Below, in pieces: positions 1,734 to 37,072 of a stretch of DNA of 64,000 nucleotides (the first letter of the stretch is position 1; every line of letters begins with the position of its first letter). Below the pieces are notes generated by a model. That model was not told where the DNA came from and did no database searches. It saw nothing but the letters and a program-made list of their open reading frames with translations. Made by a program: the position numbers and the translations under genes. The stretch covers positions 124,001 to 188,000 of the forward strand of contig CANMIS010000004.1 in NCBI GenBank assembly GCA_947498065.1. Direction: 5' to 3'. Source of the DNA: an uncultured Erythrobacter sp. (GTDB lineage Bacteria; Pseudomonadota; Alphaproteobacteria; Sphingomonadales; Sphingomonadaceae).

Positions 1734-3094
1734 GACAGCACTCCTTCCAGCTCTTTCGCCAGTGTTTCGATGTCTTCCTCTGTCGTCGTTTCAGTCACCG
1801 CGACCAGCAGAGCATCCTCCAGCCCCGCAACGCCTGGATAGAGCCGGTCAAGCGAAACGCCGCCCAGAACGCCGCGATCAGCCAAGCTGCGCACAACGTC
1901 GCGCGCCGGCTTGCCGCCGAGTTGCAGGGTGAATTCGTTGAAGAAGGCGCTGTTGAGAAGGCTCACACCGGGGATTTGCTCTAGCCGGTCCGCCGCAATG
2001 CAAGCCAGGCGGTGGTTCTCAGCCGCCAGTTCGCGCAGGCCCTTTTCACCGAGCAAGGTCATGTGAACATTGAACGCCAGCGCGCACAGGCCGGAATTGG
2101 TGCAGATGTTGGAGGTCGCCTTCTCGCGGCGAATATGCTGCTCGCGCGTGGAGAGCGTCAGCACAAAACCGCGCTTGCCCTCTGCATCCGTGGTCTCACC
2201 GCACAGCCGGCCCGGCATTTGCCGTACATGCTTGGGATCGCGCACTGCGAACAGGCCGAGGTAAGGCCCGCCAAATTGCAAGCCAACACCGATAGACTGC
2301 CCCTCACCCACAACGATGTCCGCGCCCATCTCACCCGGCGATTTGATCGCGCCCAGCGCGACCGGTTCTGTGTTCACCACCACTAGCAAAGCGCCCTTAG
2401 CATGCGCGGCGTCAGCCAGTTCGGTGAGGTCGGAGATGCGGCCAAGGATGTCGGGATATTGCACCACCACACAGGCGGTGTCGTCATCGATCCGGCTGAT
2501 CAGACCAGCATTGTCTGGCTCGGTCTGAATCGCGGGCATCGCATCGGCGATGGTGTCGCCGGTAAACTGCGCCATGGTTTTGACGACCTGACTGTAATGC
2601 GGATGCAGCGCGCCTGATAGCACCGCGCGGTGGCGGCGGGTGACGCGGCCAGCCATCGCCACCGCTTCCCAGCATGCCGTGGAACCATCATACATCGAGG
2701 CATTGGCGACCGCGCAGCCATAGAGCCGCGAGACCTGGCTCTGAAACTCGAACAGCATTTGCAGCGTGCCCTGAGCAATCTCAGGCTGATACGGAGTGTA
2801 TGCGGTTAGGAACTCACCGCGTTGGATCACCGTATCGACGCTGGCGGGAACATGGTGCCGGTAAGCCCCCGCACCCAGGAAGAATGGCGCATCACCTGCC
2901 GCCAAATTCTTATTCGCGCGCGCTTTCATATGCCGCTCAACCGTCATTTCAGAGGCGTGCATCGGCAGCTCGCGAATCGGGCCATCAAGCTGTGCCACGG
3001 CGGGCACATCGACGAACAGATCATCGATCGAATTGGCACCAATTTTCGCCAGCATATCGGCGCGATCAGTGTCGGTGAGAGGCAGGTAACGCAT
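1730..3094 (-). CDS. gcvPA: Glycine dehydrogenase (decarboxylating) subunit 1, P-protein alpha half
   Basis: N-terminal half of the split P-protein, 454 residues from the ATG at 3094 (protein begins [11 protein letters not shown]). That start was chosen over an upstream in-frame one at 3148 because GGAG lies seven bases before it and the sequence from there matches the family's usual N-terminus. It is a PLP-fold subunit that lacks the PLP lysine and completes the active site together with GcvPB. It ends inside the gcvPB start codon (four-base overlap). About 87 bases separate it from gcvH, with nothing notable between. Confidence 0.93.
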
Positions 3095-4771: not shown

Positions 4772-4985
4772 GCCCCCTCTGTCGGGAAACCTGAGAGCTT
4801 AGCTTAGCCTTGCCTTACGGCGCGGCGAGCCTTCCCCTTCGGTGGCCTTGCGAAAGCTCGCAAGAGCGCTTTCCAGAGTGCCCATTCCAGCGCGGTCCGT
4901 TTGCCTGAGAGTTTCCGGGGCGGTTGCTCCTTCGGCGCCTTGCCCGAATGCCTTGGAGGGCAAATCGGCCAAATCTCTCCCGCGA
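4772..4985 (-). ncRNA. Tandem glycine riboswitch
   Basis: Read on the minus strand, the leader of gcvT contains two glycine aptamer signatures in a row. The first has GCGGGAGAGA, then GCGCCGAAGGAGCAA, then GGAAACTCTCAGGCAA followed by ACGGACCGC. The second has ACCGAAGGGGAAGGC and AAGCTCTCAGGTTTCCCGACAGAGGGGG-type 3' sequence (key blocks CTCTCAGG and GACAGAGG). This is the classic gcvT motif in its two-aptamer arrangement and is expected to switch the downstream operon on when glycine is high. A possible promoter (TTGACG at 5042-5047, AACATG at 5019-5024 on the forward map, spacer 17) lies just upstream. The expression platform lies between 4772 and the gcvT start. Confidence 0.92.
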
Positions 4986-5091
4986 AAGATGCCAGAATCA
5001 CTTCTGACGGGCATGCGTCATGTTGCGCATGCGAAGGGGTGCGTCAATCTCCGCCAAGCATTATCCGGGAAAACGCGAAACAATCGTGCGA

Positions 5092-24661: not shown

Positions 24662-26860
24662 CTAGCTTTCCTCCCCCTTGAGAGGGATCACAGCGGCAAA
24701 GCCGCTCCATGCGATCGTCTCTCCCTCAAGCACGACCGAATGGGCCGCCTGCGCGTCTTTGTTGTGCGAGACAGCGATCGCGAAACGCTGTCCGGTTTTA
24801 AGAGTGATCTCGACCAGGTCTTTCCCATCGACATGGGCATGCTGCATTCCCGCAATGCGGCTGCGGCTGGAGACGGTCTGTTCCGCTGCGCCGTCATAGC
24901 TGCCGTGGCTTTCCAGCAGCGCAGCAATACTGACAGTGCCGGTCGGGCGGTTCGCACGCAGCATGATCAAAGGCTCGCGGCGCAGGTTGAAATTGGGATC
25001 ATTCGCCCCGCTCTCGCCCAGCACCACGTCGAGCGCTCCATCCGCAGCAAACCGGTAAGTGTAAAACCGGCCATCAAGCAGCCACGTGAGCGCGCCCTTG
25101 CCGTCGCGCTCCTGAGCAATCGCATCGGCCCAAATGTGCTGATAGCCATTTGCCTCGCCCAGAACTGGGCGCGCGGCGGTGAAATTCTGCGCCGCCAGAT
25201 CATGCTCCATGATGTGCCCGCTGTAATGCAGCGGCAGATCATAGAGATGCGGTTCGCCACTCTCGCCGCGCGTCAGATCGAGCACAATTGGGGCTTCGAG
25301 ACCGGGAATATCCGGCATCACAATGGTGCGAGTGAGTGTGACACCATCGTAAGCGGTATCAATGCGGGCGCTGCTAACCTGCAGGCCTGGCGCATCGGAG
25401 AAATAGAGCTGGGTCGGCGCGTTCTGATTGCCGATCTTGACCTGGCCATCAAAGTGGCTGCGCTCATCCACGACCAAAGTGTTGTGAGCGACGGTAGACT
25501 TCGCCCAGCTGGTGTTTTCCGGCAGGTAGCGCCCGCCCTCTTTCGCCTCGATATTGAGGAAGCGCGCCGCGCCGTAATCGCGGATCACTTCGATGCCATT
25601 GTCGTAGAGCTGCCATCCGAGCTTGTCGAAATGACCGTGCCCCAGGCCTTGCGAGGTGTTCTTAGCGATCAGCACGGTGGATGGCTCGCCATTGGTATTC
25701 ATCGGCCCTTGCCTCAGGATCGCCAAAGCGCCCTCATCGCCCTCCGGTCCATCACCGAACAGCATGGAACGGAACGGGAATGGCTCAGCCTTGCCCGCAG
25801 CCAAATCCCGCGCGACCAGACGCCCATTTTTGCTCAGGATTGTGCGATCTTGAAACTCGGCAATCGACAGCAGCGAAGGATCGCCAGTTTGCGCATAGGC
25901 GATTGCGACCCCGTGATAGAGCTCGTCGGTCTTCAGGCTCTTATCGCGGATCGCATCGTTGAACGGGAAGAAGAACCCGCCGTAGCTCAGCTGAACGGTG
26001 GTGCGCAGCGCCTTCAGCAAGATGCCGTCGCGGTGCTCCCAAATTTTCTGCTCGGGATCATTGCGCTCAATCGCGTCGGCAAAGACCATGAACGGCATCA
26101 GCGCATAACGCTGATAATAAGGCCCTTCGTTGTAATAGCCCTCGGGCGAGAACAGCAGCTCTGTCTGGCGCAGAAAGCCGACCTTGCCGCTCTTGTCCGA
26201 GCCCTTGAGCGCGCGGTCGACCATGTCTCGATCGCCGAGCAGATATCCGGTCATGCCAACGCCGGCGGTCGCCCAGGTCGCATGGTTGTGAATTCGGTCG
26301 AAGGTCGCTTGCGATTCAACCGAGAGAAAATGGGCCGCGCGGCGGAACACGTCATTGTCGATCCGCTCACGGTCGGCATCGCTCAGCGTGTCGCGGATAT
26401 CGCCGTAACCCTGCACTGAGTGCACCAGCCACACAGCGTCGTTGAGCACTTGCCAGAAAATCCGACCAGGGCCCTGATTTTTACGCGCTGGGTGCTCGCC
26501 AAGCGTCGGGTAGAGATCCGCATAACCGAGCAACATATCGCGGGCGTAATCAGCATAGGCCTGCTCGCCCGTGATCTGAAACAATTGCCCGGCGAGATAG
26601 ATCGCCTTGTAATTGCGCTTATGCTGTTCGTGCGTGTAGCCGCCGCCGGGATCCTTAGGCTGAGGCATGACCACGCCCTGCTCCATCATCTGATCAACGA
26701 AGCTGCGCGCCCGGTCCAGTTCGGCCTTGTAAAGCGGCGGCAAGTCCGAGACCGCCGCAGCTCCCCCAAGCGCGGCGGTCTCGTCTTGAGCAGCGGCATA
26801 GGCCGGCTGCGTGAGCGTAGTGCAGGCAATGGCTGCGGCTAGGCAAAAGGCGCGCTTCAT
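24662..26860 (-). CDS. Oligo-alginate lyase, polysaccharide lyase family 17
   Basis: 732 residues with signal peptide (MKRAFCLAAAIACTT..., cleavage near AYAAAQ), so periplasmic. An (alpha/alpha) toroid N-terminal alginate lyase domain holds the N192-H193 pair (RIHNHATWATAG) and the tyrosine-rich EGYYNEGPYYQRY near 241-252; a heparinase II/III-like beta-sheet C-terminal domain follows. This matches exolytic PL17 enzymes that release unsaturated monomer from alginate oligomers. It overlaps the PL6 gene by four bases upstream and is followed after two bases by kdgF, which handles its product. Confidence 0.93.
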   Translation of the reverse strand: MKRAFCLAAAIACTTLTQPAYAAAQDETAALGGAAAVSDLPPLYKAELDRARSFVDQMMEQGVVMPQPKDPGGGYTHEQHKRNYKAIYLAGQLFQITGEQAYADYARDMLLGYADLYPTLGEHPARKNQGPGRIFWQVLNDAVWLVHSVQGYGDIRDTLSDADRERIDNDVFRRAAHFLSVESQATFDRIHNHATWATAGVGMTGYLLGDRDMVDRALKGSDKSGKVGFLRQTELLFSPEGYYNEGPYYQRYALMPFMVFADAIERNDPEQKIWEHRDGILLKALRTTVQLSYGGFFFPFNDAIRDKSLKTDELYHGVAIAYAQTGDPSLLSIAEFQDRTILSKNGRLVARDLAAGKAEPFPFRSMLFGDGPEGDEGALAILRQGPMNTNGEPSTVLIAKNTSQGLGHGHFDKLGWQLYDNGIEVIRDYGAARFLNIEAKEGGRYLPENTSWAKSTVAHNTLVVDERSHFDGQVKIGNQNAPTQLYFSDAPGLQVSSARIDTAYDGVTLTRTIVMPDIPGLEAPIVLDLTRGESGEPHLYDLPLHYSGHIMEHDLAAQNFTAARPVLGEANGYQHIWADAIAQERDGKGALTWLLDGRFYTYRFAADGALDVVLGESGANDPNFNLRREPLIMLRANRPTGTVSIAALLESHGSYDGAAEQTVSSRSRIAGMQHAHVDGKDLVEITLKTGQRFAIAVSHNKDAQAAHSVVLEGETIAWSGFAAVIPLKGEES

Positions 26861-29136
26861 TCGCTGCCTCCCGCGTCAAAGATATTCCCGGCCAGCTTGG
26901 CGCGGTGATCGCCCTCAAAATTGAGCTCTTCCAGAACCAATTGCGGCGTGTTCGAAAACGCGTTTTGGGTGATCGCGGTCTTCGGCGTGCCAACCGTGTG
27001 AACCACCCGGAACGGGGCTGATCCAGCCACAGCGTTGCGGGCCACATCGGCGATCTGAACCCCGTGCAAATTCACCGAAGCCACTGAGCCATTGGTCACG
27101 GCCTTGCCGACGTTCACCAGATTGTTGCCTGAGATATTGACGAACGGGCCAAAGGTGCTCTCGTCACGGCCGCCGCGATAGACATTGGCAATCGCGCCGC
27201 CAACATTGGCAAAATTGCTGTTCGTAATGTCGAGATATTCGACATTGTACTGTCCGAAATCTTCGGTTTCTGCCGCAGCGGATACGACCGTACCCGTGAT
27301 ATCGGCAAAATTGCTGTTGCGGATCGTCACGCGGTCCGCGAGCGCGCTTTTGCCAAGGGTCAGGACGTTGAACGACTTGTTGACCACCAGGCCGCGCACA
27401 GACACGCCGTCCATCTCAATCCGCATATTCGACTGAATCGGGAAAGTGGTGGTGCGGATGACCGAATTGCCTACCGAGTCCGGGGCAAGTTCGCCATCAA
27501 TCACAAGATTGCTGAGTTGCAGATTGCCGCCTTCGCGCAGCTCAATCAGAGATGGCCGCGTGAACAGGATACGCGGTGGCTCCGCGCCTTCCTCAAACGC
27601 GCCGCGAATGGCGATTGTTTTGCCAAGCGGGATGGAGCGATCGACAGTGTAATCGCCGCTGCTCAGCTGCAAGACATCGCCATCTTCGGCGGCCATTGCA
27701 GCCTCTGCGAGGGTGCCCTCGCCCGGATGGACTTTGATGACGCGGCCAGAGGAACCAAAGGCAAGCTCATCGCCCGGCTTTGGATACCATTGCGCGCCAA
27801 CCTGATCGAGTGAGACGACCTTAAGATCGCGCGGTGCGCCCAGCGTCTTAAGCTCTGGATCGGCAGGATAGAGCAAACCGTTTTCGGCGCGCCCCATTGC
27901 GACCGGCGCGTGGTCAATCTTCACTGCCAATTGCTCTTCGACCTCGCCTTGCGCAACGCGGTTGCCGCTGAACGCAATGCCAGAGATATCGTCGTAGACC
28001 TCGAGGAATGACTGTCCCTCAAGACCGCTCAGCAGATTGTTTGCAAAGGTGGAATTGCTTGGCGGAGCCGAACGCTCTTCATCCGCGCCGACATTGAAGC
28101 CAACCCGCGCGCTGTCGACGATCGTGTTATTCTCGATCCGGGCGCCCTCAACCTCAACATAGCGATTGACCGGCGAATTGGGCACACCATTCATGATCGC
28201 GAGCGCACTGGAAAATGCCGTCCCGCGCAGCCCCTCCATGTAATTGCCGCGTACCGTCTGACCGCGATTGATCACGCGGATACCGCCGGTGTAATCCTTG
28301 CCATGCCCCATGAAGACATTGCCCTCGACGACATTGTTGTCGCCATGCCTGAGGGTGAGCGTGCCGCGCGAGCGCAGGAACAGATTGCCGCGAAAGACAT
28401 TTCCGCCGGACTTGGACGAGATGATCTCCACCTCGCCATCGGTGCGGTCAAACACATTGTAAGCGACCAATGTGTTGGAGTTGAACATCGAGTATTTGCT
28501 CGTCCCGATGCGCAGCGTCTCGCCGCCGTTCGAGCCGAGTACCGGGCGCGGACCGAAGTAATTGTATTCGATCCGGTGGTTGTTCTCGCGGCTTTCCTCG
28601 CTGTCGAGCCGCACCGCCAGGGTCACGCCTTTGTTGGTCTTGCCAACCATATGATTGTGATCGAAACGGTTGTTTGAGCCGTAAATGCCGACCCAGTAAT
28701 CGGATTCGTAGCGGTCCGGTTTGCTGAAATTGTCGATCACCACTTCGGTGACGCGGCTGTTGCGCGAGACGTCCTTTTTCGTGCGGCGGAAAGAGATCAC
28801 CTCGCCGCGCGGGCTGTAGCCGTCTTTGAAAACGAGGCCAGTTACGAGAATATGCTCGCCGCCAATGCGCAGGCTAGACTGGCCGGTGAGGAACACCTTG
28901 CCCGCTTCTTCAGAGATCACGGTAATGGGCTTGCCCGGCTTACCCTTGCCGGTGATCACCAGCTCAAAGTCGCGCCATTCGCCATTGGCCAGGATGATGA
29001 CATCGCCCGCCTCAATATCCTTGAGGGCATGGGCATATTCGTTCTGATTTCGGACAAAGTGGTTTTCTGCGAGTGCGGGGACTGACCCCAGGCACACAGC
29101 AAACACCACAAGGCACAGCCTCGACAACATCCCCAA
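26857..29136 (-). CDS. Alginate lyase, polysaccharide lyase family 6, two-domain
   Basis: 759 residues with signal peptide (cleavage near PALAEN). Parallel beta-helix of the chondroitinase B/PL6 class. Catalytic pair K242 (EIISSKSGG) and R263 (LTLRHGDNN), 21 residues apart as in characterised PL6 enzymes; acidic calcium ligands in NGGETLRIG and TDGEVEII. The second half is another right-handed helix, as in the longer PL6 subfamily 1 enzymes. Acts on polymer or oligomer in the periplasm or outside. First gene of the alginate operon, with a well-formed promoter upstream. Confidence 0.93.
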   Translation of the reverse strand: MGMLSRLCLVVFAVCLGSVPALAENHFVRNQNEYAHALKDIEAGDVIILANGEWRDFELVITGKGKPGKPITVISEEAGKVFLTGQSSLRIGGEHILVTGLVFKDGYSPRGEVISFRRTKKDVSRNSRVTEVVIDNFSKPDRYESDYWVGIYGSNNRFDHNHMVGKTNKGVTLAVRLDSEESRENNHRIEYNYFGPRPVLGSNGGETLRIGTSKYSMFNSNTLVAYNVFDRTDGEVEIISSKSGGNVFRGNLFLRSRGTLTLRHGDNNVVEGNVFMGHGKDYTGGIRVINRGQTVRGNYMEGLRGTAFSSALAIMNGVPNSPVNRYVEVEGARIENNTIVDSARVGFNVGADEERSAPPSNSTFANNLLSGLEGQSFLEVYDDISGIAFSGNRVAQGEVEEQLAVKIDHAPVAMGRAENGLLYPADPELKTLGAPRDLKVVSLDQVGAQWYPKPGDELAFGSSGRVIKVHPGEGTLAEAAMAAEDGDVLQLSSGDYTVDRSIPLGKTIAIRGAFEEGAEPPRILFTRPSLIELREGGNLQLSNLVIDGELAPDSVGNSVIRTTTFPIQSNMRIEMDGVSVRGLVVNKSFNVLTLGKSALADRVTIRNSNFADITGTVVSAAAETEDFGQYNVEYLDITNSNFANVGGAIANVYRGGRDESTFGPFVNISGNNLVNVGKAVTNGSVASVNLHGVQIADVARNAVAGSAPFRVVHTVGTPKTAITQNAFSNTPQLVLEELNFEGDHRAKLAGNIFDAGGSE

Positions 29137-29163: not shown

Positions 29164-29236
29164 ACTATAAGGAGAGTCGAACGCCTGTCAATCAATCTGG
29201 CATGTTAGAAATAGATTTTTTGTAATACCAATTGGT
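29164..29236 (-). promoter_or_regulatory. Promoter and upstream element of the PL6 alginate operon
   Basis: Minus-strand TTGACA (29191-29186) and TATAGT (29169-29164) are 16 bases apart. Upstream lies ACCAATTGGTAT, containing the perfect palindrome ACCAATTGGT (29227-29236). The GGTAT of this element begins exactly 38 bases before TTGACA, as at both receptor promoters. The site is centred near -73 relative to the expected transcript start. Confidence 0.75.
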
Positions 29237-29977
29237 TTAGCCGATTTTGGCTGATGCCAAAAAGCGCTCGCGGCTCTGATTGGCCTGCTGCTGGACCTCT
29301 TCCAAAGCCTGCCTTTCGGTGGCCTCCAGCATCGCCTCAAGCAGGCGGTGGAAGTGCTCTCGCATCGCCGCCCGGGCGCCGGCTGGATCGCGATCTTTCA
29401 ACGCATCGAACACCGCTCGGTGTTCCTCGGTGCGCGATTCCGCATCGTGCACGCACACGGCCTCATAGGTCGATTTAACTGCCGGAATTTCCTCACGCAT
29501 CCGCCACAAGGACGTGATCGTGTGAACCATCGCGGCGTTATTGGAAGCCTCTGCGATGGTCAGGTGAAATTGCTCATCAGCCTCGTTCGCTTCTTCTTCG
29601 CTGCCATGGCGCATTTGCTCAATCAGTACCTCAAGCTTGGCGATACCTTCATCAGAGATATTGTGAGCAGCGAGCGCGGCGGATTCGGATTCGACGAGCA
29701 AGCGCGCCTCAGTCACCTCAAAGGCGCTGGCGTTGGGCAAAGCCTCACCCAAAGCGGGCGGATTTTCACTGACATAGACACCGGAGCCGGTCTTGATTTC
29801 CAGCTTGCCAATCGCTTGCAGCGCGATCTCAGCCTCGCGGATGGTCACCCTGCTAACACCAAGCTTTTCAGCCAGTTCGCGTTCACCAGGCAACCGGGTC
29901 CCGGGCGGGTAAGCGCCTTGGTCGATTAGCTCTGCGATTTGCTCCGCAACGGCCTGAAAAAGTCTCTTGCTGCTCAT
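29237..29977 (-). CDS. GntR-family regulator, FadR subfamily (FCD domain)
   Basis: 246 residues. N-terminal winged helix (GTRLPGERELAEKLGVSRVTIREAEIALQ, residues 26-54, with the typical GSGVYV turn) and an all-helical FCD ligand-binding domain (residues 90-225) that in this family binds uronates or other small acids. It lies between the PL6 operon and the first TonB receptor, all on one strand, so it is the obvious candidate regulator of alginate use. A copy of the shared ATTGGTAT element overlaps its probable -10, suggesting self-control. Confidence 0.9.
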   Translation of the reverse strand: MSSKRLFQAVAEQIAELIDQGAYPPGTRLPGERELAEKLGVSRVTIREAEIALQAIGKLEIKTGSGVYVSENPPALGEALPNASAFEVTEARLLVESESAALAAHNISDEGIAKLEVLIEQMRHGSEEEANEADEQFHLTIAEASNNAAMVHTITSLWRMREEIPAVKSTYEAVCVHDAESRTEEHRAVFDALKDRDPAGARAAMREHFHRLLEAMLEATERQALEEVQQQANQSRERFLASAKIG

Positions 29978-30010
29978 TGGTGCTGGTTACTCCGCGATGG
30001 ACGGGACAGT

Positions 30011-30023
30011 TCTATACCAATTT
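30011..30023 (-). promoter_or_regulatory. ATTGGTAT element overlapping the probable gntR -10 box
   Basis: On the minus strand AAATTGGTATAGA includes the TATAGA -10-like box (30016-30011) inside the same AATTGGTAT element found upstream of the alginate promoters. No good -35 lies at normal distance. Unlike the three structural promoters, here the element would sit on the core promoter, fitting repression. Confidence 0.5.
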
Positions 30024-30059
30024 CCCTAGTCGATTTGCCTTCCTAATTCCAGTTAGGTC

Positions 30060-30098
30060 GCTGGCCGCCAATTATTGCTCCAATTATCGGCGGCCAGC
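30060..30098. terminator. Hairpin after the first TonB receptor gene
   Basis: GCTGGCCGCC (30060-30069) pairs with GGCGGCCAGC (30089-30098), a ten-pair GC-rich stem with an AT-rich loop, five bases beyond the receptor stop codon. There is no T run, so it may protect or end the receptor transcript before the gntR promoter. Confidence 0.5.
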
Positions 30099-30103
30099 CA
30101 AGC

Positions 30104-33100
30104 TTAGAATTTGAAACGAACGCCCGCAAAATAGCGCGGTCCGTAAACCTGGATCGCCCCAAAATCATCCGGCGCTCCGCGGAAATTGGTACGCGGTTCG
30201 TTGAACAGGTTGATGCCTTCCAGAGTGAACTTCACATTGTTGTTGAGCTCATAGGAAATCCGAGCTTCAAACACGCTGACATCGTCAACCGTCCGGATCC
30301 GGCCCGGCGTCGAGATGAACTGCTGGAAATAGCTGCTGCGATATTTGTAGACGCCCTGAAGGTCGAACGGGCCGATTTCGTAATAGGCCTGAGCCGCAAG
30401 CACGTGCTTGGAAAAACCAAACAGATTGGTCGGCGGGATCAGGCCATTGCTGGTCGTGCTCGTGCCATCCGCATTCACCGTAGTGATCGCGCCCAGTGCA
30501 TCGTCCTCAAACTCAAAGTTTGAATCGGCGTAGTTGTAGCTGATCTTGAAACCGAGCCCATCGAGCGGTGCCGGCAGATAGCTGAAGCGGTGGGCCGCAG
30601 TAACCTCAATACCGTAGATCGTGCTGGTTTCGTCAGTCGTGTTGACCGATGTCACTGGCAGGGCAATGTTCTGGCCTTCGATATTGAAGGTTTCCAAGAC
30701 GCTGACCGTTTCAAACCCGCCATTGAAGCTCTTGTAGTAAGCATTGAAGGCGAGGATCGTATCGTCATTCGGATACCATTCGAGGCCCGCATCGACATTC
30801 CATGACAGCAGCGGGTCCGTCGCCGGGTTGCCCGTCGCGTTCACGCTGTCCACACCGCCGGTGATAGCCTGCTGCGCAGAGGTGAACTCGTCATTGTTGG
30901 TGTTGAACGTCCGGCCATTGCCGAGATCCGATGGATCGGGGCGTGACAGCGCGCGGTAGACCGCAAACCGGCCGAGCAGGTCAGGCTGAAATTCTGCAAC
31001 GAGGTTCAGGCTTGGCAGAAACTCGGTGTACGAAGCCTCCGACAAGTTGCTGACCAGCGTTGATGTGTCCTGGACCAATTGGAACTCATCGGCCGAGTCC
31101 GGATCAGTCGGGTCAGCGGGCGTAAACTCAACCGACAGATCTGAGCGGAAACCGCGCGTGGCGATATCAGTCCCAACCACCCGCAGGCCCAGGTTACCGC
31201 GAACAGGAGTGTCACCCCATTCACTGTCGAAATTGGCCTGAGCATAGGCGGCCCAACTGCGCTCGGTCACATCGGTGTTATCGATGGAGTCGAAATCACC
31301 AGTTGGGAAAATGACGTTCCCGTCGCTGTCGAACTCCAAGCCCGATGGATCTTCACGCTCGAGTACCCGCGCGATGCAGCGCGCGTCGAAAGTGGCGAAT
31401 GTGTTTGATGTGCCGATCACATTGCCCGCCAGATCAACATTGGTGATCAACGGGTTGCCGCCAGAGATCGACGAGAGAAAGCCAGTTTCCGGGAAGGCCG
31501 TGCGGCATTCCTGGTTGGCAATAAACAATGCGCCAGAGCCATCGGTGTCATTGTAGGTGTTCTCAAATCGGCTGTTGCCGTTTTGAGCGCCTGGCACGTC
31601 GCGGTAGATGAGCTCTTGATAGCGCAAACCCGCTTCAATCGAGCTGAAGAAGCCGTCCATTTCATATTCGACATCTCCGCGCATCGCCCAGACGCTGTTA
31701 AAGCGGTCCTGCTCCAGATCGGCGCGCAGGCGGGGATCGTTGGCAAACAATGTGTAGTCGGTGACGTCGAAGTTCTGAGTAAAGAAGTTCAGACCCTGCG
31801 AGCCGTTCTGACGGATCAAAACAGCGGTTTCAACGCGGTCATCCGTCCCGTTTGTCCGGCCAGCATTCGGCGTCTGATCGCTTTCAAACGCCTCTGGGAA
31901 GAACGGATTGCCGTCGGCATCGGTGTTGCCAAAAATGCTCTCGCCATCCTCGGTGCGGAAGCGGATTTGCACCGCCTCTTCAACGCGGCGTGTTTGCGAA
32001 TAAGAGCCATCAAGCGAGAAGCGCAGACGGTCGGTTGCCTGCACGTCGATCGACAGACCGCCGCCGTAATACTCCTCGTCGCGCTCGAGATATTCGCTGA
32101 CCGCTTCGATGCGCTGCTCGTTCGTGAACTGGCGCAGAGCCCCGCTTTCGGTGACGATCAGATCGAAGTCGAGGCGGTTGGGATCGCCCGGGCCGTCAAT
32201 TCGGCGGCCTTCAGCAAAGTTCAAATCGCTGCGCTGCTCGCGGAAAAGGCGGGTGGAATATTGGAAGTCGGCGTTGATATCGACATTCGGGCTTGGCTTG
32301 TACTGGATCGCGCCAAAGAAGGAATCGCGCGTGTCATCCGTGATGTTTGAACGCAGCGCATAGCTGTTGCGGGCGATCAGGAACGGCAGGTTGACGCTGC
32401 CATCGCGCAGACCAGCGATTGTGCTGCCACTGGTGTCGCAATTGCCATCATCAAACACACCATCGCTGGTCGTGCTTGGATCAATCACACAGGCACGGAT
32501 GGTGTTTGAGACATTGGCCTCTTGCTCAGGATTGGTCGTATCATTGCGCGAGAACCCAAGCGAAATGCCAAGTTCGCCGTCGCCTAGCTGATACTGATCA
32601 ACATAGCTCAGCGTGCCGCGATAGCCGAACTTTTGGAAGCGCTGGTCCGCATCAATATCCAGATTGTCCGGGTTGATGTTGAGCTTGAAATCGCCCTGAA
32701 TGCGCTGTTTGCCGTAATCGAGCGGCTTGATCGTTTCGAGCACGATCTGCCCGGCAACACCGCCTTCGATGTAGCTGGCGGCCTGCGTCTTATAGATGCC
32801 GACCTTGCTGAACAATTCCGATGGGAACTGGCTGAAGTTTACTGAGCGATCGCCGCTACCATTGGTGGCAACGCGGCCGTTGATAACGGTAGAGCTTAGG
32901 AAAGGACCAAGACCCCGGATCGAGATTTCAGTCGCGCCGCCTTGCTCGCGGTGAGAGCCAGCACCGGTCAGCGTTTCAAGCGCCTCACCGATGGACAGCG
33001 CGGGAATATCACCAATTTCATCCGCTGAGAGCGCATCGAACACCTCGATGGAATTGCGCTTTTCTTCGATCGAACCCTGGATGGTCGCCCGGATGCCAGA

Positions 33101-33256
33101 GACGATAATCTCGCCCTCACCCTCTTCGACGCTTTCAGGCTCTTCTGCGTCCTGAGCGATTGCCGGAACCGAAGCCAAAGCCGTGCCCGCAAGCAATGCC
33201 GCAATTGAAAATGAAATACGCAGTGATCCGCGTGAGCTGTTCTCACGAAATGCCAT
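30104..33256 (-). CDS. TonB-dependent receptor, probable alginate oligosaccharide importer (first copy)
   Basis: 1050 residues from ATG 33256, preceded by GGGAGGGG. Signal peptide ends near VPAIAQDA; a TonB-box-like EIIVSGI follows, then the plug domain (IRGLGPFLSSTVINGR) and a large 22-strand barrel ending in RYFAGVRFKF. Size and N-terminal pattern fit the Xanthomonas/Caulobacter-type receptors used for carbohydrates. Shares promoter architecture with the second receptor and the PL6 operon, so the likely cargo is alginate oligomers. An in-frame extension to 33316 has no signal peptide and covers the promoter. Confidence 0.88.
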   Translation of the reverse strand: MAFRENSSRGSLRISFSIAALLAGTALASVPAIAQDAEEPESVEEGEGEIIVSGIRATIQGSIEEKRNSIEVFDALSADEIGDIPALSIGEALETLTGAGSHREQGGATEISIRGLGPFLSSTVINGRVATNGSGDRSVNFSQFPSELFSKVGIYKTQAASYIEGGVAGQIVLETIKPLDYGKQRIQGDFKLNINPDNLDIDADQRFQKFGYRGTLSYVDQYQLGDGELGISLGFSRNDTTNPEQEANVSNTIRACVIDPSTTSDGVFDDGNCDTSGSTIAGLRDGSVNLPFLIARNSYALRSNITDDTRDSFFGAIQYKPSPNVDINADFQYSTRLFREQRSDLNFAEGRRIDGPGDPNRLDFDLIVTESGALRQFTNEQRIEAVSEYLERDEEYYGGGLSIDVQATDRLRFSLDGSYSQTRRVEEAVQIRFRTEDGESIFGNTDADGNPFFPEAFESDQTPNAGRTNGTDDRVETAVLIRQNGSQGLNFFTQNFDVTDYTLFANDPRLRADLEQDRFNSVWAMRGDVEYEMDGFFSSIEAGLRYQELIYRDVPGAQNGNSRFENTYNDTDGSGALFIANQECRTAFPETGFLSSISGGNPLITNVDLAGNVIGTSNTFATFDARCIARVLEREDPSGLEFDSDGNVIFPTGDFDSIDNTDVTERSWAAYAQANFDSEWGDTPVRGNLGLRVVGTDIATRGFRSDLSVEFTPADPTDPDSADEFQLVQDTSTLVSNLSEASYTEFLPSLNLVAEFQPDLLGRFAVYRALSRPDPSDLGNGRTFNTNNDEFTSAQQAITGGVDSVNATGNPATDPLLSWNVDAGLEWYPNDDTILAFNAYYKSFNGGFETVSVLETFNIEGQNIALPVTSVNTTDETSTIYGIEVTAAHRFSYLPAPLDGLGFKISYNYADSNFEFEDDALGAITTVNADGTSTTSNGLIPPTNLFGFSKHVLAAQAYYEIGPFDLQGVYKYRSSYFQQFISTPGRIRTVDDVSVFEARISYELNNNVKFTLEGINLFNEPRTNFRGAPDDFGAIQVYGPRYFAGVRFKF

Positions 33257-33288
33257 GATACCCCTCCCAAGGTGGTCTGTCTGAGGCG

Positions 33289-33360
33289 AGGGTAGAGGGC
33301 AGGACCGCGATGTCAACCGTTAGATCAGACCATTTTATTGATTTCTGTCATACCAATTTG
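33289..33360 (-). promoter_or_regulatory. Promoter and upstream element of the first TonB receptor
   Basis: Minus-strand TTGACA (33316-33311) and TACCCT (33294-33289), spacer 16. Upstream is the 20-base block ATTTCTGTCATACCAATTTG (forward map, 33341-33360), identical to one before the second receptor. GGTAT begins 38 bases before TTGACA. Confidence 0.75.
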
Positions 33361-33392
33361 CTGCGTTGTCTGCAGGTCACATAATACAAATC

Positions 33393-33517
33393 AGGCGCCA
33401 CCGGGGAGACGGTGACGCCTGTTGTGCCTAGACCGCCCGCTTACGGGCGATCTGCAAGAGACTTCCTTGGCTAGATCCAGATGCCAATCAGGAATAGCAT
33501 CTGCGATCCGGCCAAGG
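33393..33517. terminator. Three successive hairpins downstream of the second TonB receptor
   Basis: Between the second receptor's stop (33539) and the first receptor's promoter lie three inverted repeats. 33465-33517 has CCTTGGC, GATC and CAGATGC arms pairing with GCATCTG, GATC and GCCAAGG. 33434-33449 is CGCCCG-CTTA-CGGGCG. 33393-33420 has AGGCG-CACC pairing with GGTG-CGCCT, followed on the minus strand by GATTTGTATTAT. The last is the best terminator candidate; the first could stabilise the receptor mRNA. Confidence 0.55.
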
Positions 33518-33538
33518 GAGCTATGGTAAGCCTCGCTG

Positions 33539-36500
33539 TTACAGCTTCAGCGTCGCGCCAAATGTGATCCGGCGATCTGGCAGACCCTGGAAGCACAGCA
33601 GCGCACCTTCGTTCACGCAGCGCTGCTCAATTTTCGACTTCGTCAGGTTCACACCTTCGACCCCGATGTTGAGATAATCGGTCACATCATAGGTGATGCT
33701 GGCGTTGAGCTGCCCCCGCGCCTCCGTCACAGTCGGGAAACCGAGCGTCGAGTTGAGCGACGCGCCGCCGGCTGTATCCAGCGTACGGAAGGCGTCGCGC
33801 CATGTGTAACGCGCACGGGCCGAGATGCCGTATTTCTCGTAATAAAGCGTTGCGTTGTAAGCATGCTCCGAGAAGTCGAGCAGACCCTGAACCGCAGTGA
33901 CCGGCACGGCGATGTTTGGATTGATCGCTTGAAAGATATCTTCGCCGCGGCCCGAGTTTTCGTTGGTCGCCTCACCGCCACCAAAGTCTTGGTAGGTGTA
34001 GTTGGCAAGGATGCCGAAGCCTGAGGCAAAGCCCAATGTGTCCTCAAATTGCGAAAGGTCATATTGGAACGCGATCTCGACGCCGGTTTGCGTGGTGTTC
34101 GCCGTATCGTTGATGATCGTTTGCAGCGGCACGCACAGGCCGTTGCCAGGCACAGGCGACAGAACATTGCGATCCGGAACCGGGTTGAAGATACCGCCTC
34201 CTTCACATGGGTCGGTGATATCGCGGAAGCCATTGGCGTCCTCAACTGCATCTTCCACTTGGGTCACGAACAGGTTCGTGCGGTCCTTGTGGAAGAAGCC
34301 AATGCTGATCAGCGATGATGGCGCAAAGTACCATGAGAGCGAGGCATCGAACGATTGCACCGTTTCTGGCGCAAGGTTCGGATTGCCCAATGCCACAGCG
34401 TTGTTTGGTCCGGTTGGGAACGACACCGACAGCGAGAGGTCGTTAAAGTCAGGACGGTTGATGTCCTCGGTGTAGCTGGCGCGGAACACCAGATCATCGG
34501 TGAGGTCTGCGATCACGTTCACACGTGGCAAAATCTCATTGTAATTGCCCGAAGACGTAACCGGCGAAGCAATTCCACCCGCAACCGCATTACCGAAGGA
34601 GTCGATCTGGGTATCGACCCAACGAAGGCCAACATTGCCGCGTACCACGCCGAATTCGAAATTGGCCTGAGCATAGAAGGCATGCGTTTGCTCTTCGATA
34701 CGGAACGACGCGGCAAGGTTACCGGAGGCAGTTGGATCCAAATCCCTTAGCAAACGTCCGCCATTGGCGATTGCCGCTTGCCCGCCTGGTGTTGCATCCA
34801 GTGCGGCTTGCAGCTGGGCAAACACCGCTTCCCGATCAGAGAACGAGCGGTTTGGATCGACAACGACAAAGTTGCGGAACGCCAGCTCTCGGCCGTCAAA
34901 CGCGCCAAAATTGCTTGGCCCTGGAACAATCAGATCGGCAAAAGTCGAGCCGCTTGGGCTGTTAGCGATTGCGCCGGTACCAAAGGTTGAGCGCAGCTGA
35001 TCAAACTGAGTTGAACTGTCATTGTAACGATAGCCCGCATCCACCGATGTGATCACGCCAAGGATATCTTCCAGATCAAGCGTAGTGTCGATGCGGAAGG
35101 CATCTTCTTTGTTTTGCGTGCGATTGTTGCTGTTCGTGACCGCGTCTAGCACCGTGTTGGCCGGGTCGAGCAATTGCTCAACGGTCGGCGCAAATGGCGA
35201 GGCAAAATCAATCCCGAATGTCAGCGCGCCATTACGCAAATCGTAGATGAACGGAACGCTGTTATCATTGCTGCTGCCGTCGAGCGGGGTCAGCGGATTG
35301 GGGTTGATGAAGTTAAGCGTGGTACTCAGGTTCGGGTTCGACGAATCCGAGGTAGAGCGCGACAGCTCAACCCGCGTGCTGAGACGGCCGGTTTCGAACT
35401 CAGTACCAAAGCGATAAAGCTCGCTCTTGGTTACGCGCGCGCCAGTGTCGCTTGAAAAGCGCAGGTTTGGATCGTCATCATCGCGGGCCAGGTTTGGCTG
35501 GATTGTGCCAAACAAAGCAGCCTCGATGCTACCGAGAGCAACCCCATCAAGCGAACCAAAGTTGACCGTCTCAAAACCATCAGGAACGTTTACGGTATCG
35601 ACCGCACTCACGCCGGAGGCCTGAATGCGCGAGCTGTCCTGGCGCCGCTCTTGATCATTGTAGATCGTGTCGAAGAAGAACATCAGATTGTCGCTCGGAG
35701 CCCATTCGAGCGAGCCCGCGAAGTTGATCGTCTCAAACTCAAAATTCTCGCGCTCCTGATTGAGGAACTGAATGTTGAGGAATGGGAAATCCGGGCCCGG
35801 CGCACCCGCTGCGGTTACCGCTTGGCCTGCATTGATCAGGTTATCGCGGTCAACGCGCGGACGGAAAGAGGTCGCCTCTTGCTCCGAGTAACTCGCGCTC
35901 AGAACGATACCGATCTCGCCAGCGCCGGTATCCCAAACATTGCCGAAGCTACCCGAAAGGCGCGGCGTAATGCTGTCCGACAGCTCACTGTATTCGCCCT
36001 GCGCGCGGAAGCTCAAAATACGGTCAGAAATGTCGAGCGGACGAATGGTGCGCAGATTGACGGTACCGCCAACAGACCCCTCGATCGTGTCTGCAGTTGG
36101 CGCCTTGATCACCTCAACCGAGGCGATGATCGCCGGGTTGATATCTTCAAAGCTGATGCCGCCGCGGCCCGTGCCCGCCGCAACGGTCTTGACCCCGTTG
36201 ATCAGAACCTGGTTGTCGTTCGTACCGCGAATTTGAACACCGGTACCGACACCAGCGGTCCGAGTGATCTGAACACCGGTGACGTTCTCAAGAACCTCAG
36301 CAAGGTTTTGGTCAGGCAGCTTACCAATGTCTTCCGCCTGAATCACCTCAACCAGACTGTCCGCATTGCGCTTTTCATTGAGCGCGCTTTGCAGCGAGCT
36401 GCGAATGCCGGTGACGATAATTGTATTTTCTTCTTCAGCAGATTCGGGCGCCGCCGAATCTTGTGCCAACGCAGCGCTCGGCGCGAAGGCCATGATCGCC

Positions 36501-36574
36501 GAACCAGCCATCAACCCTGCAAAAAGCCGCGATTTTTTTGAAGACTGCACCTCAGCGGTAAGCCGATAACCCAT
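33539..36574 (-). CDS. TonB-dependent receptor, probable alginate oligosaccharide importer (second copy)
   Basis: 1011 residues. Signal peptide ends near AALAQDS; TonB-box-like NTIIVTGIRSSLQSAL, plug motifs LPDQNLAEVLENVTGVQI and GVQIRGTNDNQVLINGV, and a C-terminal barrel strand RRITFGATLKL. This is the typical TonB receptor form of Caulobacter/Xanthomonas for plant and algal glycans. It is distinct in sequence from the first receptor, so the pair probably differs in ligand size or type. Ribosome site GGGAGAGAG lies just before ATG 36574. Confidence 0.9.
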   Translation of the reverse strand: MGYRLTAEVQSSKKSRLFAGLMAGSAIMAFAPSAALAQDSAAPESAEEENTIIVTGIRSSLQSALNEKRNADSLVEVIQAEDIGKLPDQNLAEVLENVTGVQITRTAGVGTGVQIRGTNDNQVLINGVKTVAAGTGRGGISFEDINPAIIASVEVIKAPTADTIEGSVGGTVNLRTIRPLDISDRILSFRAQGEYSELSDSITPRLSGSFGNVWDTGAGEIGIVLSASYSEQEATSFRPRVDRDNLINAGQAVTAAGAPGPDFPFLNIQFLNQERENFEFETINFAGSLEWAPSDNLMFFFDTIYNDQERRQDSSRIQASGVSAVDTVNVPDGFETVNFGSLDGVALGSIEAALFGTIQPNLARDDDDPNLRFSSDTGARVTKSELYRFGTEFETGRLSTRVELSRSTSDSSNPNLSTTLNFINPNPLTPLDGSSNDNSVPFIYDLRNGALTFGIDFASPFAPTVEQLLDPANTVLDAVTNSNNRTQNKEDAFRIDTTLDLEDILGVITSVDAGYRYNDSSTQFDQLRSTFGTGAIANSPSGSTFADLIVPGPSNFGAFDGRELAFRNFVVVDPNRSFSDREAVFAQLQAALDATPGGQAAIANGGRLLRDLDPTASGNLAASFRIEEQTHAFYAQANFEFGVVRGNVGLRWVDTQIDSFGNAVAGGIASPVTSSGNYNEILPRVNVIADLTDDLVFRASYTEDINRPDFNDLSLSVSFPTGPNNAVALGNPNLAPETVQSFDASLSWYFAPSSLISIGFFHKDRTNLFVTQVEDAVEDANGFRDITDPCEGGGIFNPVPDRNVLSPVPGNGLCVPLQTIINDTANTTQTGVEIAFQYDLSQFEDTLGFASGFGILANYTYQDFGGGEATNENSGRGEDIFQAINPNIAVPVTAVQGLLDFSEHAYNATLYYEKYGISARARYTWRDAFRTLDTAGGASLNSTLGFPTVTEARGQLNASITYDVTDYLNIGVEGVNLTKSKIEQRCVNEGALLCFQGLPDRRITFGATLKL

Positions 36575-36611
36575 AACTCTCTCCCGTGAACTCTTTTGGT
36601 TATTGGGGGCC

Positions 36612-36686
36612 GTTGTATATTGGCATGATCCGATGTCAACCTATTGGACAAGCCTGTTGATCAATTTCTGTCATACCAATTTGGTA
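36612..36686 (-). promoter_or_regulatory. Promoter and upstream element of the second TonB receptor
   Basis: Minus-strand TTGACA (36639-36634) with TACAAC 16 bases further (36617-36612). Upstream is the palindrome TACCAA-T-TTGGTA (36674-36686) within the same 20-base block (36664-36683) found before the first receptor. GGTAT begins 38 bases before TTGACA. The rest of the stretch to the tRNA (36687-36867) shows no convincing gene. Confidence 0.75.
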
Positions 36687-36867: not shown

Positions 36868-36943
36868 TGGTGCCGCTTAGAGGACTCGAACCTCTGACCC
36901 CATCATTACGAATGATGTGCTCTACCACCTGAGCTAAAGCGGC
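36868..36943 (-). tRNA. tRNA-Thr (anticodon CGT)
   Basis: 76 bases on the minus strand, starting GCCGCTTTAGCTCAG and ending AAGCGGCACCA with encoded CCA. Acceptor arms GCCGCTT/AAGCGGC pair, the anticodon stem is CATCA/TGATG with loop TTCGTAA, and the T arm has GGTTCGAGTCC. Reads ACG codons. Confidence 0.95.
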
Positions 36944-36997
36944 GCCGGTGGGTGATAGTGGTGAACCACCCAAATATGCATCTTCCCAACAGAAAGA

Positions 36998-37072
36998 TGG
37001 AGGCCCGAGCCGGAATCGAACCGGCGTACACGGATTTGCAATCCGCTGCGTCACCACTCCGCCATCGGGCCA
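36998..37072 (-). tRNA. tRNA-Cys (anticodon GCA)
   Basis: 75 bases on the minus strand, starting TGGCCCGATGGCGGAG and ending CTCGGGCCTCCA with encoded CCA. Anticodon loop TTGCAAA gives GCA. T arm GGTTCGATTCC. It lies 54 bases upstream of tRNA-Thr on the same strand. Confidence 0.95.

Follow-up and report, generated by a model that had tools for sequence, protein, structure and literature searches.

The alginate locus of an uncultured Erythrobacter sp. raises the question of which protein reads a sequence element placed at one exact distance from the −35 box of three promoters, and whether this protein acts as an activator or a repressor of the genes. The locus was analyzed within a window of 64,000 nucleotides, to which the coordinates below refer unless a locus of another genome is named. 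The array of sites, its spacing, its conservation in relatives and its co-occurrence with the neighbouring gntR gene were read directly from the DNA. The identification of the adjacent FadR-type GntR as the probable reader of a phased site array at the alginate promoters is well supported. Concerning the sign of control, activation is the leading reading over repression; its support is modest and we hold it with middling confidence.

The alginate locus lies on the minus strand, as do all the features listed here, and gntR sits between the first receptor gene and the lyases. The second TonB-dependent receptor is encoded at 33539..36574, the first at 30104..33256, gntR at 29237..29977 and a PL6-type lyase (Pfam Chondroitinase B) at 26857..29130. 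The ATG starts of the PL6 lyase and the first receptor were placed by eye; for the latter, the ATG at 33256 is preceded by a ribosome-binding-like stretch, and the TTG start given in the ORF list (33316) is the −35 box itself (33311-33316). The PL6 lyase gene heads a cluster of genes with a common direction, which also encode a PL17-like lyase, an MFS transporter, an SDR, a PfkB kinase that resembles KDG kinases and an OprB porin. The cluster probably forms one operon. Its promoter lies directly 3′ of the gntR stop codon. Genes for tRNA-Thr (CGT) and tRNA-Cys (GCA) were found at 36868-37071, immediately 5′ of the second receptor promoter.

As first described, GGTAT starts at 29229, 33354 and 36677, in each case TTGACA begins 38 bases further on (29191, 33316 and 36639), and −10-like boxes follow 16 bases past TTGACA: TATAGT at PL6, TACCCT at the first receptor and TACAAC at the second. 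GGTAT belongs to a distal site of the general form TTGGTATKACARA. At PL6, the distal site AATTGGTATTACAAA (29219..29233) is followed by a proximal site of which the right half ATGCCAGA is kept (29196..29209), the −35 box TTGACA (29186..29191) in the context ATTGATTGACA and, after the 16-base spacer, the −10 box TATAGT (29164..29169). The first receptor promoter carries the distal site AATTGGTATGACAGA (33344..33358), a proximal half-site GGTCTGA (33325..33331) with its start 15 bases ahead of the −35 box, GG plus TTGACA (33311..33318), where a possible third half-site overlaps the −35 box, and the weak −10 box TACCCT (33289..33294). The distal site AATTGGTATGACAGA is also found at the second receptor promoter (36667..36681), together with an imperfect proximal half-site GGCTTG (36649..36654), again starting 15 bases before the −35 box, GG plus TTGACA (36634..36641) and the weak −10 box TACAAC (36612..36617), upstream of which ATGCCAA occurs in the −35/−10 spacer. 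Since GGTAT is the left half only, the centre of the distal site, put near −73 in the preliminary description, would instead lie near −68; this position, and −45 for the proximal site, assume a transcription start 7 bases after the −10 box.

Could such a layout be a product of chance, or its spacing the relic of a promoter duplication? Both are very improbable. The pattern GGTATN{28,38}TTGACA has three matches in the window against 0.05 expected, and three were reached in none of 100 shuffles. A search of the whole 3.2 Mb genome with TTGGTAT-N33-TTGACA returned, at 0 mismatches, exactly these three elements and no further ones. Two other places, with one mismatch to the composite, lie inside open frames of 425 and 316 codons and were discarded; the assessment covered matches with at most one mismatch, for the 15-mer as well. 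Duplication would account for the 20-base block CAAATTGGTATGACAGAAAT common to both receptor promoters, for the 57/100 aligned positions that these two share and for the 54/100 shared by the PL6 and second-receptor promoters, whereas the PL6 and first-receptor promoters share only 41/100. Moreover, in 37 receptor promoters the flanks and spacers are at an identity of 0.26-0.35, near background, and the sites stay (distal 0.82, proximal 0.64, GG plus −35 box 0.93, the values 0.82 and 0.93 being raised by selection because the search required the distal 7-mer and TTGAC). Shuffles, relatives and the background-level identity outside the sites strongly disfavour both explanations.

The spacing is held in relatives. 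From named genomes 28 loci were gathered, of which 26 encode close GntR homologues (76-100% identity) and two, L057 and L058, weak partial matches that were excluded from the set. The 26 loci come mostly from Erythrobacter, Altererythrobacter and kin, with one from Sphingosinicella, and the element again precedes the same genes, including cases in which the second receptor is encoded on the other strand. Among the 64 promoters placed by script in these loci, TTGAC lies 37-39 bases after the best distal match in 59 (44 at 38, 9 at 37 and 6 at 39 bases); the best match was taken with no spacing condition, using a distal matrix trained on a set of 66 promoters. Three of these 59 have poor distal matches, namely the PL6 promoter of L042 and the first-receptor promoters of L045 and L056. 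The five off-spacing promoters all precede the first receptor (L043, L044, L048, L049 and L050), and a degraded GG at 37 is retained, as judged by eye, in L043, L048 and L050. The L049 promoter (4982-5030) has 46 instead of 38 bases from the distal site to TTGACT. The set of 66 non-redundant promoters has one promoter at 36, 12 at 37, 46 at 38 and 7 at 39 bases, a spread bounded by the search, which required TTGAC to be preceded, at a distance of 35 to 41 bases, by a distal-like 7-mer. Four of 80 script matches were dropped before counting: those of L038 and L055 are coding, the former matching PL17 and the latter lying within the receptor gene, and those of L096 and L105 match no window protein and fall within open frames of 493 and 415 codons.

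The proximal site, whose GG starts 15 bases before TTGAC, had been overlooked in the preliminary description. Of the 46 receptor promoters, 30 have its left half GG[TC][AC]T at −15, and of the 20 PL6 promoters, 12 have its right half A[TG][AG]CC at −12; no neighbouring register of either half reaches 2 in these promoters. In the rows with no search condition on the halves, the counts are 24/40 (receptor) and 11/17 (PL6); by the strict test, neither half was found in 15/46 receptor and 6/20 PL6 promoters. The left half is kept at receptor promoters as AGGTATG, PL6 promoters of the close clade keep the right half CATGCCAGA, and a proximal palindrome, TTTTGGCATACCAAA or TTTGGCATGCCAAA, is present in four loci (L049, L051, L052 and L054). 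The distal site lies 22-24 bases upstream of the proximal one (21 once). Since the proximal site is fixed at 15 and the distal offset varies, the rigid distance belongs to the proximal site, and the distal one has about 1 base of slack. At the first-receptor promoter of three loci (L043 6650-6697, L048 6645-6692 and L045 6635-6681), the distal site has GGACT, not GGTAT; there the proximal site reads GGACT (L043, L048) or GGTCT (L045), in an unchanged register. This alteration in step suggests that one protein reads both sites.

The product of gntR has an N-terminal GntR wHTH domain (PF00392, 70 bits) and a C-terminal FCD domain (PF07729, 89 bits), both above cut-off. Its nearest NCBIfam models are ExuR, the best, LldR, also near, and UxuR, the third, all below cut-off; with 125 of 396 bits for ExuR and 107.5 of 442 bits for UxuR, it does not qualify as an ortholog of either by the curated equivalog cut-offs. 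The operator consensus of the FadR subfamily is TKGT-N2/3-ACMA, with N3 for ExuR and N2 for UxuR (Suvorova et al., 2015, PMC4494728). The distal site, TGGT-ATK-ACAR, matches this consensus; the proximal site does so in part only, as half-sites or as a palindrome, which in L051, L052 and L054 has C for the last T of TKGT. By its domains and, at the distal site, by the operator consensus, GntR is a member of the FadR subfamily.

The preliminary description had named either the adjacent GntR or another factor as the reader of the element. Co-occurrence, the FadR-type consensus and a site upstream of gntR in some species argue for the former. The strict composite pattern was found in 19 of 298 family genomes (0 with the reversed control) and gntR, at E up to 1e-60, in 32 of the 298; both are present together in 17 genomes (Fisher p 4e-17, genomes being treated as independent). 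One of the two strict-pattern genomes outside these 17 shows the C-terminal tail of gntR beside the array, and the other has a single match inside an open frame. That another factor reads the array, GntR being merely a neighbour, is improbable in view of this near confinement to gntR genomes, of the FadR consensus in the distal site and of the palindromes TTTGGCATGCCAAA and TTTTGGCATACCAAA at the proximal site in four loci. Nevertheless, the strict pattern is absent in 15 of the 32 gntR genomes (11 with homologues of 52-62% identity and 4 of 73-82%), five of which have a relaxed array (L075, L078, L081, L084 and L087), and GGACT at one receptor promoter of L043, L045 and L048 is not accompanied by a second close GntR copy, none being detected at E 1e-15 in six genomes; both observations would fit a separate factor.

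A fourth ATTGGTAT, missed in the preliminary description, is found at 30014-30021, with its end 36 bases before the gntR ATG. It forms part of a single site AAATTGGTATAG (30012..30023) near the likely transcription start of gntR. TTGGYATAG occurs 32-47 bases before the ATG in 17 of 39 distinct gntR upstream regions of homologues with at least 70% identity and is absent in 22; among homologues below 70% identity, it was present in one of 19 upstream regions. The site nearly always comes just after a TAGG-type −10-like stretch. This suggests autorepression by GntR in some species, exerted through one site at the inferred transcription start, and the TATAG inside the site could be read as a −10 itself. 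In L077, a full array (2484-2524, minus strand) lies about 250 bases upstream of gntR, whose product is 64% identical. In L104, a full array (around 1501-1546) precedes the gene for a 61% identical receptor; the same genome has another GntR, 47% identical, some 3 kb away.

The bases around the −35 box bear on the sign of control. G stands two bases before the box in 65/66 promoters; GGTTGAC is present in 44 of 46 receptor promoters, and GG precedes TTGAC in 5 of 20 PL6 promoters. Five distant PL6 promoters (L075, L078, L081, L084 and L087) read ATTGGTTGAC; in the close clade, GA takes the place of GG before −35. In a rough control, which took both strands of whole loci with coding sequence included, 14 of 196 other TTGACW in the 26 loci were preceded by GG and 24 by GA. 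Only two TTGACA/TATWNT promoter matches exist in the own genome, the PL6 promoter among them, too few for a better promoter control. Downstream of −35, half-sites show a mild excess at receptor promoters (18 versus 9.1 in shuffles, with 3/500 as high) and none at PL6 promoters (3 versus 3.9). The −35 box may lie inside a third half-site, GGTTGAC; with GG before TTGAC commoner than in the control, an operator that extends over −35 would be in keeping with repression.

According to this alternative, which is possible though less likely than activation, cooperative GntR dimers on tandem sites, the last covering −35 (GGTTGAC), would block sigma until an alginate monomer releases GntR. It had been argued that a repressor site would not need a constant phase, but the argument fails if the −35 box is part of the operator: the constant distance would then come from site-to-site geometry, and spacing alone does not decide against a repressor. 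Besides the GG at receptor promoters, repression would agree with ATTGGTTGAC at the five distant PL6 promoters, the half-site excess downstream of −35 at receptor promoters, −35 boxes that are perfect or nearly so, the good PL6 core promoter, the site of gntR near its likely start and the habit of the family, most FadR-type regulators being repressors. It agrees less well with a strongest site that is the farthest from the core promoter, with weak −10 boxes at the receptors and with GA instead of GG at close-clade PL6 promoters. The spacings of 23 and 13 bases are also unlike the close repeats of NanR (8-9 bases), and GntR is without a long N-terminal extension, its Pfam domain beginning at residue 8.

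Activation by GntR is the reading that we prefer. Both main sites lie upstream of −35, which counts for activation, and they do so at a fixed helical phase, as is characteristic of class I and class II activators. The strong distal site, the weaker proximal one and the poor receptor −10 boxes (3/6 matches to TATAAT in 32/46) favour it modestly. PL6 promoters, with good −35 and −10 boxes (5/6 matches at −10 in 9/20), may need little help, which argues against it. The fixed phase had been taken as the mark of a class I activator; the constant spacing stands and is conserved, yet the conclusion is weaker than claimed, as there are two phased sites and maybe a third. That GntR reads the phased array and activates the alginate genes is a proposal whose chances we consider evenly balanced. 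One GntR dimer would occupy the strong distal site TTGGTATKACARA, centred near −68, and a second the weaker proximal site, 15 bases before −35 and centred near −45, and a third half-site possibly extends over the −35 box. In the most likely scenario, GntR with an alginate breakdown product bound would fill the proximal site next to sigma and, from there, activate the PL6 lyase operon and both receptor genes. In some species, it would also act as a repressor of gntR, bound to the single site at the transcription start. GntR binding, the ligand, the transcription start and the sign of control are inferred.

Together, the lyase operon and the two receptor genes, joined in some species by gntR, would form a compact, strongly conserved regulon of Erythrobacter-like bacteria with alginate genes. 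Its phase-locked layout makes the question of activator versus repressor testable for FadR-type regulators. In addition, a constant distance to −35 can arise if the −35 box may belong to the operator, which calls for caution when the sign of control is derived from motifs. Among the literature matches listed, which covered open-licence papers, no title or abstract dealt with this regulon, and nothing on the AlgO operator was found among them; where alginate, Erythrobacter and GntR came together, the one mention of GntR only cited the paper on AusR.

ExuR and UxuR of E. coli, hexuronate regulators of the FadR subfamily with the palindrome AAATTGGTATACCAATTT, are the best and third NCBIfam models and share the TKGT/ACMA consensus with the sites described here. 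By contrast, GntR falls far below their ortholog cut-offs, and its tandem sites are phased with −35. AusR of Zobellia galactanivorans is described in a review as a GntR regulator and repressor of alginate genes (PMC8286568), a precedent for repression; it comes from a flavobacterium and is likened to GntR by description only. E. coli FadR is reported to repress some genes and activate others, with an activator site at fabA that overlaps −40, and to lose its activator role upon release by its ligand (PMC3462791). Such a release would have the wrong sense for induction by alginate and counts against activation. At fabA and fabB the site of FadR lies near −40, as far as described, whereas the sites here lie near −45 and −68. 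Activation of fabA by FadR is nonetheless a precedent for activation, as is GlcC, an activator, and GlcR, a repressor, is one for the opposite sign (PMC11323563 for GlcC and GlcR). For NanR, published work describes GntR-type dimers on tandem GGTATA repeats, with a required spacing and a (GGTATA)3 operator, which favours the repressor alternative, and it places the sites downstream of the polymerase site and makes cooperativity dependent on an N-terminal extension (PMC8012715). An array of NanR type was rejected for the alginate promoters: the repeats lie upstream of the −35 box and on it, at distances of 23 and 13 bases from one another, and the wHTH match of GntR starts at residue 8 instead of behind a 32-residue N-terminal extension.

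As far as these descriptions go, none of FadR, GlcC/GlcR, NanR and AusR has the layout found here. Activators of AraC and LysR type combine a strong upstream anchor with a weak site beside −35, and the array resembles this combination, although the protein families are unrelated. A positional switch is conceivable on these lines, if unlikely: an anchor dimer at −68 and the rigid site at −45 would control a half-site fused to −35, and the ligand would decide whether GntR recruits polymerase or covers the −35 box. If this were true, the alginate promoters would show the GntR equivalent of the AraC arrangement, conserved throughout a bacterial family.
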